Origin: an uncultured Acidimicrobiaceae bacterium
Lineage (GTDB): Bacteria; Actinomycetota; Acidimicrobiia; Spongiisociales; UBA5794
DNA length: 64,000 nucleotides
NCBI GenBank assembly: GCA_947258985.1
Contig: CAMYKI010000008.1
Span: forward strand, 18,275 to 82,274
Direction: 5' to 3'
Position 1 is the first letter of the stretch. The number at the start of each line of letters is the position of its first letter. A program made the position numbers and the translations under genes. The notes beneath the pieces were generated by a model that saw only the letters and a program-made list of their open reading frames with translations, did not search any database and was not told the origin of the DNA. Positions 5,382 through 55,126 of this stretch are shown here, piece after piece.

Positions 5382-6059
5382 ATGGTGATGGATTTCTTCA
5401 GAGGGGGCGGACAGTCGACCATCGAAGAGGTCGAAAAGACCCTTGTCGAGATGATGGAGAACGCTTACGTCGTCTACGAAGAGGCAATGGGTGCGGTCTT
5501 TGGCGGCGGCAAGTCCAAGGAGACCAAGAAGCACGTCAAGAAGACCGACAAAGAGATCAACGTTGCCCAGCAGGAAGTGCGCCGCGCTCTCGTTATGCAC
5601 GCTTCGGTCAGTCCGACGACGGACATTGCCGACACGCTTGCATATATGTCGGTGGTCAAAGACGTAGAGCGGGTCGGCGACTACTCGAAGAATGTATACG
5701 ACCTGGCCAAGTTCGGCACCGACTTCACCGGTGCAGCCGACTTCGAAGAGTTGGCGGAGTACCGCGACAAGGTGGGTCAGTTGATGGAGGATGCCACCGC
5801 AGTATTCGCCGTACGGGACGAAGAGGGTGCTCAGGCGCTGATCAACAAGGCCGACGTCTTCCTCGACGAGTATGACGACCATGTGCGCACCGCGTTCAAC
5901 TCGACCGGGCCGGCCTCGGAGGCCGTGGCTCGTGCCCTGTATTACCGCTTCCTCAAGCGGATCACGGCGCACGTCATGAACCTAATGACGGCGCTGGTGG
6001 CTCCGATCGACCGCCTCGACTACTACGACGAGGCCAAAGAAGACAGAGTCGAGCCCTAG
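5382..6059 (+). CDS. PhoU-domain phosphate transport/regulatory protein
   Basis: 13 nt downstream of the Na/Pi cotransporter; helical, ALVMHASVSPTTDIADTLAYMSVVKDVERVGDYSKNVYDLA resembles PhoU repeats. Confidence 0.8.
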   Translation: MVMDFFRGGGQSTIEEVEKTLVEMMENAYVVYEEAMGAVFGGGKSKETKKHVKKTDKEINVAQQEVRRALVMHASVSPTTDIADTLAYMSVVKDVERVGDYSKNVYDLAKFGTDFTGAADFEELAEYRDKVGQLMEDATAVFAVRDEEGAQALINKADVFLDEYDDHVRTAFNSTGPASEAVARALYYRFLKRITAHVMNLMTALVAPIDRLDYYDEAKEDRVEP

Positions 6060-11510: not shown

Positions 11511-11587
11511 GCGATGAATCTAGCCGAGCGGGCTGCCGGGGGCTGACCCTCGGCAGCCCGATGACATCGCAACCGGCTCTCCCCCGG

Positions 11588-11634
11588 TTCTTGCGTAACT
11601 GGTGCCGGGATACCGGCCTGAGCTACGCAGGAAG
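11588..11634. repeat. REP-like imperfect palindrome, family 2, copy 1
   Basis: TTCTTGCGTAACTGGTGCCGGGATACCGGCCTGAGCTACGCAGGAA; matches copies at 33408, 38168 and 38238. Confidence 0.85.
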
Positions 11635-11647
11635 CGAAATGGGGCGG

Positions 11648-21805: not shown

Positions 21806-21912
21806 CTAGGAGCCTGCTGAACGATGTCAGTTTGGCCTCGCAGCCGCGCTTGAGGCCGGGCGCTCTTCGTGGCCGAGCGAGTCCGCACGCCATTTGCTCC
21901 GCAGTCTCCTAG
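21806..21912. repeat. ~107-bp interspersed repeat with CTAGGAG/CTCCTAG terminal inverted repeats, family 1, copy A (diverged)
   Basis: CTAGGAGCCTGCTGAACGATG ... CATTTGCTCCGCAGTCTCCTAG; same ends and length as 46701-46806 and 53326-53431; contains the TAG stop of the DUF427 gene. Confidence 0.75.
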
Positions 21913-22664
21913 GAGAAGATCGTCTTCGGGCGTGTCTCTAGTTCGCCATCGATGTAGATATCCAGCTTCTCGTTGTAAAACGAAACCATGCCGGCAATAC
22001 GCCCGCTCTCCTCTGCGGGGAACGGATACCACCACACCACGTTTTCGTGTCGGGCTCCGCCAATCACCACGTCGTAGTAGCTCGCCACACCTTTGTACGG
22101 GCAGTCTGTGTGAAGGTCGGTTCCCTCGAGAAGGTCCATGCGCACATCCGTCTTCGGCAGGTAGTACCGCGTGGGAAGGCCGGTTTCGTAGAGGAATCGA
22201 CCCGAGCGCGAGTCAGCGACCTTGACCCCATCGATGACCACCTCGACGTGGCGTGAGCTCGGGAGGATGTCCACCCGCGTGTGGGGATCCCGGGCGTGCA
22301 CATAGACTTCTTCGTCCTCCTCGAACCACGAGTCCATCGCCGCCCAGTCGAAGGCGACGTGGTCGCGCAGCTCCTCCACAGGAGAATCAAGATGCCGATA
22401 GGCGGCGGCATCCGCCTTCCTCCCGGCAGTCGCCACGGTGTAAAGCGTGGCGTCGCCACGGCTGGGCGACCGTTTGGTTTCACCCGTCGCCGAGAGCATT
22501 TCGAGCCGGACGTCCCCCTCCGGGAAGTAGTACACGGGGTAGTAGGGCTTCTCCCAAACGAGCAAGGGGCGAGTCGTGTCGGCAACGAGTTCGCCGCCCA
22601 GATAGACCCGGATCCGCTTCGCGCCCTCTTCGATACGCACCCGGCGTCGGTTCTTGTCGCTCAT
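21909..22664 (-). CDS. DUF427 domain-containing protein (two tandem DUF427 units)
   Basis: RVRIEEGAKRIRVYLGGELVADTTRPLLVWEKPYYPVYYFPEGDVR and a second unit HVEVVIDGVKVADSRSGRFLYETGLPTRYYLPKTDVRMDLLEGTDLHTDCPYKGVASYYDV. Confidence 0.9.
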   Translation of the reverse strand: MSDKNRRRVRIEEGAKRIRVYLGGELVADTTRPLLVWEKPYYPVYYFPEGDVRLEMLSATGETKRSPSRGDATLYTVATAGRKADAAAYRHLDSPVEELRDHVAFDWAAMDSWFEEDEEVYVHARDPHTRVDILPSSRHVEVVIDGVKVADSRSGRFLYETGLPTRYYLPKTDVRMDLLEGTDLHTDCPYKGVASYYDVVIGGARHENVVWWYPFPAEESGRIAGMVSFYNEKLDIYIDGELETRPKTIFS

Positions 22665-38121: not shown

Positions 38122-38161
38122 GTCGCCGGACGTGTGGGCCGGACCCATCCGTTCCTGCCGA

Positions 38162-38293
38162 ACCCATCCGTTCTTGCGTTGACCCTGCCGAAATACCGGC
38201 ACCAGCTACGCAAGAAGCGAGGGAGACCCGGACCCATCCGTTCTTGCGTTGACCCTGCCGAAATACCGGCACCAGCTACGCAAGAAGCGAGGG
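38162..38293. repeat. REP-like palindrome, family 2, copies 3 and 4 in perfect tandem (70-bp period)
   Basis: 62-nt ACCCATCCGTTCTTGCGTTGACCCTGCCGAAATACCGGCACCAGCTACGCAAGAAGCGAGGG at 38162 and again at 38232; partial third ACCCATCCGTTCCTGCC at 38143. Confidence 0.95.
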
Positions 38294-46332: not shown

Positions 46333-46704
46333 ATGGCAGCACGCATCATGGTCATCGCCGACGAACAGTGGGCCCGCAATGAGGTCCACGCGGCTCTCAC
46401 CGAGCCAGACTACGCGTTGGTGGACCACACCGACCCGGCAACCGCAAAGAACGCGGTGCGTTCGGAGAACCCGAATCTCGTGGTGATCGATCTCCAGGTG
46501 GCAAGCATGGGGGGGATGGCGATCGCCCGTGATCTGCATCAGCAGGCCGCACTCGACGGGGAGGACGAGGTCCCTGTGGTTCTCCTACTCGACCGCAAGG
46601 ACGACAGCTTCCTCGCCAAACGCGCCGGCGTCGCCGGCTGGGTGGTCAAGCCGTTTACCGCAAATGACATCCGCAAAGCTGTTGAGGCTGCGCTTGGCGG
46701 TTAG
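46333..46704 (+). CDS. Single-domain response-regulator receiver protein
   Basis: IMVIADEQWARNEVHAAL, NLVVIDLQVASMGGMAIARDL, VVKPFTANDIRKAVEAAL. Confidence 0.85.
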   Translation: MAARIMVIADEQWARNEVHAALTEPDYALVDHTDPATAKNAVRSENPNLVVIDLQVASMGGMAIARDLHQQAALDGEDEVPVVLLLDRKDDSFLAKRAGVAGWVVKPFTANDIRKAVEAALGG

Positions 46705-46806
46705 GAGACCGTTGAACAAAGGCGGTGAAGGCTCGCCCGAACAACGAAGTGCCCACTCACGGAGCAGTCGCCGAGTCAGAACTCGCATTGCTCAGCGGGC
46801 GGCTAG
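46701..46806. repeat. ~106-bp interspersed repeat, family 1, copy B
   Basis: TTAGGAGACCGTTGAACAAAGGCGGTGAAGGCTCGCC...CGAGTCAGAACTCGCATTGCTCAGCGGGCGGCTAG; nearly identical to the reverse complement of 53326-53431. Confidence 0.9.
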
Positions 46807-52492: not shown

Positions 52493-53329
52493 GTGGCGGT
52501 TGATCTTCATCTGCACAGCACATTCTCAGATGGTTCCGATTCCCCGGAAGGGGTTGTCGAGCAGGCAGCCCGCCTCGGCTTGAGCGGCATCGCCCTCACC
52601 GATCACGACACCCTCGAAGGCATTCCGCGTGCGGCGGCAGCTGCAGCGGCAGCCGACATCCGTTTCATCCCCGGAATAGAGCTATCCGTCGAATGGCGGA
52701 ACCAGAGCATGCACATGCTCGTCTACTTCCTCGAGCCGGAACCGGGTCCCTTGCAGAATCGCCTCGACGAGCTGCGGCGCGGCCGGGCCGGCCGCAACGA
52801 ACGGATCGTCGGCCTCCTTCGGGAATGCGGTCTCGACGTCACCCTCGACGAAGTACTCGTCGAGGCCGGGGAAGGGGTGGTCGGGCGGCCGCACTTTGCC
52901 GGAGTGATGATGCGCAAGGGCTACGTCGACTCAGTCGCTGAAGCGTTTGATCGCTACCTGGCGACGGGACGCCCTGCATACTCGCCACGCCGGAAGCTCA
53001 CCGCTGCCGAAGCCATCTCCCTGGCACGGGCGTCGCAGGCAGTTCCAGTGATCGCCCACCCCCACACGCTGGGTCTGCGAGCCGAAGAGTACGGAACTGA
53101 CTTCGCCGAGCTGGTGGAACTCGGCCTTGGCGGAATCGAGTCCTACTACGGGGAGTACACGCCCGATCTGCGGAGCAACATTGCGGGATTGTGCGATCAA
53201 CTCGGGATCGTCGCCACCGGCGGATCCGACTACCACGGCAGTTACAAGCCACATCTATCGATCGGCATAGGCAAGGGTGATCTCAGAGTTCCCGACGAAT
53301 CATTCGATGCGCTGGTCGCCGCCCGCTAG
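52493..53329 (+). CDS. PHP-domain phosphoesterase (RNase AM/TrpH-like)
   Basis: VDLHLHSTFSDGSDSPEGVV, IALTDHDTLEGI, IPGIELSVEW, VIAHPHTLGL, ATGGSDYHGSYKP. Confidence 0.93.
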   Translation: MAVDLHLHSTFSDGSDSPEGVVEQAARLGLSGIALTDHDTLEGIPRAAAAAAAADIRFIPGIELSVEWRNQSMHMLVYFLEPEPGPLQNRLDELRRGRAGRNERIVGLLRECGLDVTLDEVLVEAGEGVVGRPHFAGVMMRKGYVDSVAEAFDRYLATGRPAYSPRRKLTAAEAISLARASQAVPVIAHPHTLGLRAEEYGTDFAELVELGLGGIESYYGEYTPDLRSNIAGLCDQLGIVATGGSDYHGSYKPHLSIGIGKGDLRVPDESFDALVAAR

Positions 53330-53431
53330 GAGCCCGCTGAGCAATGCGAGTTCTGACTCGACGGCTGCTCCGTGAGCGGGCACGTCTTTGGTCGGCGAGC
53401 CTTCACCGCCTTTGCTCAGCAGTCTCCTAGG
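53326..53431. repeat. ~105-bp interspersed repeat, family 1, copy C (inverted relative to copy B)
   Basis: CTAGGAGCCCGCTGAGCAATGCGAGTTCTGACTCG...GGCGAGCCTTCACCGCCTTTGCTCAGCAGTCTCCTAGG; contains the TAG stop of the PHP gene. Confidence 0.9.
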
Positions 53432-53507: not shown

Positions 53508-54875
53508 GTGACAACATCAGATCTAGCTCGCCTCCAGGCACCGGTTGCCTATACGGATGTGCGGCTGCGCATCAACACGATGCGGGCGATATTCGGTGCT
53601 GCTCTCAGCGCCCTCGGCATCACCGGGTTGACCCAGGGGTTGGATCCGGCAGCGTGGATCCTGCTCATTGGCCTCTACTTGACCGTCGATGCCCTGTGGA
53701 GGAGGCATCACGGCTCGAGCGCGCTCCCGATGCTCGTAACCGACATTCTGGCGATTGGCGCCATCGCGATAGTTCGCGACGATGCCGGGTTGATCGGCGC
53801 CGTCGCCTTCCTCTATGTGTTCACAGGATCAATGCTGCTGCTGCGCTTCCCGATGGCAATCGGCGTCATCGGCACCGCCGTCATCATCGCGATTGTTGCG
53901 GCCTTCGCAAGGCCGATGCTCGATCCCGAAGTCAGCGGAGCGCGGCAGGTGGTCCTCGACCTGGTAGTCGTAGGGGCGATAGTGGCGATCGTGGCAACGC
54001 TCCTGTACAGCGCCGTCCAGGCTCTACATGCCTCCACGCTCCAGCACCAGGAAGCTCTCAACGCGGAACGCCGGGTAGTTGAACTCAAGGATGAGTTTGT
54101 CTCGATGGTCAGCCACGAGTTCCGCACACCACTGACGAGCATCGCCGGCTTCTCCGCCACCCTCCGCGCCGGCTGGGACTCACTGACCCGGGAGGAGATC
54201 GACGAGTTCCTCGTCATTATGCGGCAGGAAGCCCAACACCTCAGCAGTCTCGTTGAGGACGTCCTCGTGATCCCGCGCATCGAGGCCGGCCGACTGCGGT
54301 TGAGCAGCCAGGAGTTCGATCTGGCAGCAGAGGTAGCGGCCACATCACGTCTGGTCTTCGCAGACACGGGCAAGGAAGTCAACGCCGCTATTCCCGGTGG
54401 CGTCCTAGTGAACGCCGATCGGGGCAGAACCGGTCAGGTTTTGCGCAACCTGTTCGACAACGCCCGCAAGTACGGCGGCGACGCCGTTGAAATCGAGGGG
54501 GAAGCCGGAACCAACACTTACACCATTACGGTGTCTGACAACGGCCCGGGCATTGCCGAGAGCGATTGGGAGCGGGTCTTCGAGCACTTCGAACAGGTCA
54601 CCAAGGGCGACGCCCGCTCCGACGAAGGAGTAGGGCTGGGGCTCCCGATAGCAAGACAATTGGCACGCGCCATGGACGGTGACGTTTGGTACGTACCCCG
54701 CTTCCCAACGGGTGCCTCGTTCCGATTCTCGATGCCGCTGTCTCGCATCATTCCCGACACGGGTGCCGAAGGCGGCGAGCCCGGCAAGGACCTCGAAACC
54801 ACGACCGGGCCAACCCGCCCGGGGACAACCGACCCGGAGACAATCGGGCCGGCCGCGGAGCCTCCGGCCTCCTAG
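53508..54875 (+). CDS. Sensor histidine kinase with N-terminal membrane domain
   Basis: Multiple TM segments, then VSMVSHEFRTPLTSIAGFSATL (H-box), NLFDNARKYGG (N-box), VSDNGPGIAESDWERVFEHFEQVTKGDARSDEGVGLGLPIARQLA. Confidence 0.93.
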   Translation: MTTSDLARLQAPVAYTDVRLRINTMRAIFGAALSALGITGLTQGLDPAAWILLIGLYLTVDALWRRHHGSSALPMLVTDILAIGAIAIVRDDAGLIGAVAFLYVFTGSMLLLRFPMAIGVIGTAVIIAIVAAFARPMLDPEVSGARQVVLDLVVVGAIVAIVATLLYSAVQALHASTLQHQEALNAERRVVELKDEFVSMVSHEFRTPLTSIAGFSATLRAGWDSLTREEIDEFLVIMRQEAQHLSSLVEDVLVIPRIEAGRLRLSSQEFDLAAEVAATSRLVFADTGKEVNAAIPGGVLVNADRGRTGQVLRNLFDNARKYGGDAVEIEGEAGTNTYTITVSDNGPGIAESDWERVFEHFEQVTKGDARSDEGVGLGLPIARQLARAMDGDVWYVPRFPTGASFRFSMPLSRIIPDTGAEGGEPGKDLETTTGPTRPGTTDPETIGPAAEPPAS

Positions 54876-55126
54876 TCACTCGGCGTTTCGCCGTGTTCCG
54901 CGGTTTCGAGTTCCGCCCACGGCCGAGCATCAAAGGTGTGTGACGGCAACGGCGCGGGTATGTCGCGCGGCCTCCACGCCAGAACCCAGGAACTCTGCCG
55001 GGGCGCCTGCTGGGGCGTGGCGAGAGCTTCCGCTTCGTCCTCGAGCAAAGCAGTAATCACAGCCGCGATGGCAGCGGCCTCCTCGTGCCCGGCGCGCCCG
55101 GAGATCTCGAAACGGGGTGGGTTCAT
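54872..55126 (-). CDS. Small protein resembling acyl-CoA carboxylase epsilon subunit
   Basis: ISGRAGHEEAAAIAAVITALLEDEAEAL...SSWVLAWRPRDI; coupled to methylmalonyl-CoA epimerase. Confidence 0.5.
   Translation of the reverse strand: MNPPRFEISGRAGHEEAAAIAAVITALLEDEAEALATPQQAPRQSSWVLAWRPRDIPAPLPSHTFDARPWAELETAEHGETPSD

Follow-up and report, generated by a model that had tools for sequence, protein, structure and literature searches.

Short repeats that end in inverted repeats and lie mostly between genes, such as Correia/NEMIS, RUP, ERIC and QMITE2, are thought to be mobilised by the transposase of another element, and QMITE2 is found mainly in 3' untranslated regions (PMC10969869, PMC2229807). 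Among insertion sequences, some members of the IS1182 family have been reported to target palindromes; IS1272, which belongs to this family, has been described as replacing stem-loop targets and causing no target duplication (PMC5678879). IS5 of E. coli duplicates a 4-bp target with the consensus C(A/T)A(G/A) (PMC11677980). The repeat described here, from an uncultured Acidimicrobiaceae bacterium, differs from Correia/NEMIS, RUP, ERIC and QMITE2 in that its target is CTAG and that, at over half of its places, its edge itself forms the stop codon of an adjacent gene. We put the probability at about 0.87 that it is a MITE mobilised by a CTAG-targeting DDE transposase of the IS1182 family, and that its bias towards stop codons results from target availability in combination with selection.

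The repeat was studied in a stretch of 64,000 nucleotides (the window) and in the assembly from which this stretch was taken. Each unit is made up of a body of roughly 97 bp between two CTAGs, and the body is bounded on either side by a 15-bp terminal inverted repeat, GAGNCYGYTGARCAA. The body has the size of a MITE and contains no transposase gene. In many copies CTAG is present on both sides, as is typical of a MITE that duplicates its target, while at many edges away from stop codons CTAG can no longer be read; we assume that the duplication has decayed there. As CTAG is a 4-bp palindrome, such a duplication looks the same as element ends which carry CTAG themselves; the flanking CTAGs probably arose as the duplication of a staggered cut. 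By eye, two main sequence types (GCGAGTT... and TGTCAGTT..., respectively) and a few divergent copies were recognised; a computed two-cluster split set apart the divergent copies only. The consensus is predicted to fold into a single long hairpin of about -50 kcal/mol.

Three copies are located in the window. Copy 1 (subfamily A, plus strand) extends from 53326 to 53430 including both CTAG duplications, and its body of 97 bp (53330-53426) is bordered by the terminal inverted repeats GAGCCCGCTGAGCAA and TTGCTCAGCAGTCTC. The left repeat, GAGCCCGCTGAGCAA (53330-53344, plus strand), conforms to a consensus that also describes the ends of elements of the IS1182 family found in relatives; the right one (53412-53426), which reads GAGACTGCTGAGCAA on the minus strand, adjoins the subterminal sequence GTGAAGGCTCGC. 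Copy 2 (subfamily A, minus strand) covers 46701-46806, with TTAG at its left and CTAG at its right edge. Copy 3 (subfamily B, plus strand) covers 21806-21912 including both CTAG duplications. A second, 66-bp repeat was also observed in the window, with two adjoining copies (98% identical) at 38158-38293 and a third one (64%) at 11575-11640; it has the inverted arms TTCTTGCGT...ACGCAAGAA.

The original prediction placed three stop codons inside the terminal TAGGAG of the repeat, and all three were confirmed there, with Pfam domains in agreement with the genes named: (i) the TAG at 53327-53329 (plus strand), inside the left CTAG of copy 1, ends a PHP-domain gene (52493-53329; PF02811); (ii) the TAG at 46702-46704 (plus strand), at the edge of copy 2 whose stop-side, left tetramer is TTAG instead of CTAG, ends a receiver-domain gene (called at 46333-46704; PF00072); (iii) the TAG at 21909-21911 (minus strand), inside the right CTAG of copy 3, ends a DUF427 gene (21909-22664, minus strand; PF04248). 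The predicted rarity of CTAG was likewise borne out, since the window holds 46 such sites compared to 86 +/- 8 in shuffled sequences, and the CTAG stops at 6059, 16834, 33261 and 44624 are each the end of a called gene. A CTAG at 54872-54875 had been proposed to serve two convergent genes as both stops. The plus-strand partner, a histidine kinase gene, is solid, but the minus-strand partner (54872-55126) is weak, being a low-scoring ORF of 84 amino acids with no Pfam match. This unoccupied CTAG represents the kind of site which is occupied elsewhere in the genome.

Further copies were searched for with a profile derived from the window copies, run over stretches of the window's own assembly; the statistics cover the window and 231 kb of sequence surrounding elements. 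Approximately 71 units were found at 49 places (32 single, 12 double and five triple), and at 29 of these places the edge TAG is the exact stop of a called gene. Genes were called with a home-made script based on codon usage, not with a standard gene finder, and the sampled DNA is centred on elements, so that all counts depend on caller and sampling. Where both edges are assembled, 26 of 42 places (62%) lie at gene stops. As background, 142 CTAG sites outside the elements were classified into 78 coding sites, 33 intergenic sites and 31 stops (30 single, one double). CTAG occurs at 0.38 per kb in coding sequence and at 3.4 per kb elsewhere, stops included, which is an approximately nine-fold difference.

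When compared with all CTAG sites outside elements, stop codons are over-represented at the element edges (26/42 versus 31/142 or 22%, odds ratio 5.8, p = 2.4e-6), whereas the comparison with non-coding CTAG sites revealed no significant difference (26/42 versus 31/64 or 48%, odds ratio 1.7, p = 0.23); the background sites are not independent of each other, and both p-values are therefore guides only. Stop overlap in all three window copies had been called unlikely by chance. Genome-wide, the overlap affects 29 of 49 places instead of all of them; it is more frequent than among CTAG sites as a whole, but not significantly more frequent than among the non-coding ones. An overlap no higher than expected from the distribution of CTAG sites had been named beforehand as evidence against the idea. 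The observed overlap is above that of all CTAG sites and not significantly above that of the non-coding ones, an outcome which bears on the origin of the overlap, i.e. target availability plus selection, and not on CTAG targeting as such.

Several observations might nevertheless point to a mechanism that prefers gene ends beyond the mere presence of CTAG, perhaps through a response to convergent transcription or to the structure of the DNA at such places. Besides the numerical excess of 62% over 48%, three places (C4:20394, C7:49246 and C56:18707) are sites common to two convergent genes, so that both edges of the element are stops (one of these stops is now TAA). Moreover, of the 32 element edges located at stops, 23 are right ends (p = 0.02). 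Given that the excess over non-coding CTAG sites is not significant, we regard such a preference as unlikely. A related idea is that insertion of the IS1182 subgroup and of its MITEs is actively directed to gene ends, through recognition of CTAG in combination with some feature characteristic of the 3' ends of genes. The sparing of genes would then stem from the transposase itself and not just from selection; this idea is likewise doubtful, at perhaps slightly better odds.

The long consensus hairpin and its location at the 3' ends of genes would also be in line with repeats being retained as putative transcription terminators or as stabilisers of the 3' ends of preceding transcripts. However, the sequences shown contain no T-run after the hairpin, tandem and decayed copies are common, and a DNA search of six genomes of the same genus yielded zero matches to the element. 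Retention for this purpose therefore appears quite improbable as an explanation of the distribution, while a putative terminator function could be a secondary role compatible with mobilisation by a CTAG-targeting transposase. The tandem copies include three-unit arrays at C29:16483-16788, C54:21137-21440, C28:2519-2783, C20:9465-9748 and C56:18707-18995. Within an array, a unit usually shares about one CTAG-like word with the next. The closest relative of a unit was its array neighbour in most of the comparisons made, which suggests that tandem duplication has contributed besides insertion. Element copies were also seen at or near the ends of contigs C2, C9, C39, C42, C48, C54 and C56, which would fit an assembly interrupted by the repeat.

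The same six genomes were used in a search for empty sites, in which the joined flanks of ten sites served as one query. Sister alignments pass uninterrupted through several of the insertion points, and most of the junction-spanning alignments shown contain a single CTAG, including four of four at the convergent site C4:20394 and five of five at C34:10412. Empty sites with one remaining CTAG, for which the original prediction had suggested looking, are hence present in sister genomes at most of these junctions. At the protein level, the C-termini of most sister orthologues of the neighbouring genes coincide or differ by no more than a few residues, and the stop codon is usually the same one; a few orthologues are longer, one PHP orthologue by 16 residues. 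For 13 gene ends that abut an element, a CTAG stop is present in 31 of 53 sister orthologues, as compared to 32 of 173 genes without element contact in the window's own genome (Fisher p = 6e-8, to be taken as a guide because orthologues are not independent). The three window sites vary in this respect: a CTAG stop was found in two of six sisters at the receiver site and in two of four at the DUF427 site. None of the six sister orthologues of the PHP gene has a TAG stop, all of them ending with TGA or TAA, and an ancestral CTAG is not demonstrated by this site taken alone. In the PHP stop region of genome G006, the sequence GCCCGCTGAGCAA resembles the inner portion of the terminal inverted repeat. 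It was considered as an element remnant (L249, C165) and rejected as a coincidence, as this terminal-repeat-like sequence comes without CTAG or a second end.

These comparisons modify the proposal that the repeat supplies the stop codon of the adjacent gene. The stop does lie in the edge of the repeat, yet orthologues that lack the element terminate at, or close to, the same residue; the stop has therefore been retained and not newly made. For the same reason, truncation of genes by the element, with its own TAG as the new stop, is highly improbable: a few genes do run into an element (e.g., at C17:27406 and C23:9166), but in most comparisons the matching C-termini of sister proteins, usually with the same stop, argue that the neighbouring genes have not been truncated.

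A candidate for the mobilising activity was found in a genome of the same family as the window genome (G035). Its contig C97 carries a CTAG-flanked element of 1,759 bp with terminal inverted repeats at both ends, as in IS1182 elements, and with ends reading GAGTCTGCTGA.... The encoded transposase was assigned to the IS1182 family (NF033551, 321.3 bits at a cut-off of 270), and a part of 451 amino acids shows the domains DUF772, DDE_Tnp_1 and DDE_Tnp_1_6. The left CTAG of this element is the stop of a gene (L060:3025-4194) whose predicted product is Mrp/ApbC-like. In a class-wide search with the G035 transposase, 29 of 395 genomes gave matches. In 14 elements the two ends could be recognised on either side of the transposase (with no more than five mismatches in total), and every one of the 14 is flanked by CTAG on both sides, CTAG not having been part of the search pattern; the other transposase loci were incomplete, or their ends had diverged further. 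One end pair without CTAG (L123) begins within the transposase gene; it was taken as a chance match and not counted, and a few internal end pairs in other loci were left out of the counts as likewise presumably due to chance.

Named genomes were additionally searched with an end pattern that included CTAG. Among the matches listed, most were from actinobacteria, end pairs were either of insertion-sequence length or short (113-232 bp), and MAGs of Acidimicrobiia shared the ends of the MITE. Autonomous elements with the same ends as the MITE thus exist in relatives and in other actinobacteria. Complete CTAG-flanked elements of relatives and other bacteria abut the stop of a called gene in 17 of 41 cases among the matches listed (12 insertion sequences and five MITEs). 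Of the remaining 24, four have one readable flank only; when these are set aside, the proportion at stops is 17/37 as compared to 63/434 for background CTAG sites, again among the matches listed. The subterminal GTGAAGGCTCGC, as judged by eye and without statistics, is common to the MITE and to regions near the ends of some insertion sequences. The presence of the same ends on elements with a DDE transposase, along with paired 15-bp inverted repeats and CTAG on both sides instead of a one-ended hairpin, make it hardly credible that we are dealing with a REP-type palindrome that owes its spread to a RAYT (Y1 HUH) transposase, or with a site for site-specific recombination at TAG, even if the repeat is short, palindromic, often tandem and often adjoins the 3' ends of genes.

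When the window's own assembly (92.9% complete, 150 contigs) was searched with the G035 transposase, no IS1182-like transposase was found, and we therefore infer the mobiliser from relatives; an autonomous copy has possibly been left unassembled. The single DDE_Tnp_1 hit in this assembly, on contig C125, was rejected as the autonomous copy in view of the contig's GC content of 57.5% and of the lack of a good match to the ends. This contig (L059; 3,223 bp, with a DDE_Tnp_1 ORF of 596 amino acids) is possibly foreign or contaminating.

The likeness of the presumed mobiliser to the IS1182 family thus consists in its terminal inverted repeats and in a transposase that scores above the NCBIfam IS1182 cut-off. 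While IS1272 replaces stem-loops, the target here is the 4-bp palindrome CTAG, which is present on both sides afterwards. CTAG is one of the sites of E. coli IS5; in contrast, the G035 transposase falls short of the cut-off of the best-scoring IS5 model (77.8 bits versus 140). Taken together, the CTAG-flanked IS1182 group and its MITEs fit a position intermediate between IS1272 and IS5.

In the mechanism that we propose, an IS1182-family DDE transposase would mobilise the MITE into the palindrome CTAG, and insertion would leave CTAG at both sides. Where the target is formed by the last base of the final sense codon and a TAG stop, the stop would be rebuilt and the protein would remain unchanged; where one CTAG is common to two convergent genes, each of them would have a stop of its own after insertion. 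Insertions into coding sequence would be removed by selection, and surviving copies would be located mostly on stops or in intergenic regions, owing to both the higher density of CTAG outside coding sequence and the selective loss of coding insertions. That these particular copies were moved by such a transposase is suggested by the shared ends, and the loss of coding insertions through selection probably accounts for their present distribution. Of the two possibilities raised in the original prediction, a transposable unit that targets CTAG is supported by the two-sided CTAG, the single-CTAG empty sites and the like-ended, CTAG-flanked insertion sequences. The other possibility, recombination directed at TAG stops, need not be invoked. 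Elements overlap stops at a rate not significantly above that of non-coding CTAG sites, so that CTAG targeting together with the loss of coding insertions suffices and no machinery that recognises stop codons is required.

A limited search of the open-access literature retrieved no earlier account that places IS1182 elements or MITEs on CTAG stops. We classify the repeat as a new family of MITEs whose notable consequence is the placement at stop codons. The account given here makes the overlap between repeat and stop codons testable, and ties MITEs of several actinobacteria to CTAG-flanked elements of the IS1182 family. For annotation, it advises caution, as a repeat that overlaps a stop codon need not imply a truncated gene. 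More generally, the target word alone can render a transposon nearly harmless, because CTAG is scarce in GC-rich genes and common as a C followed by a TAG stop, and because insertion would rebuild that stop.
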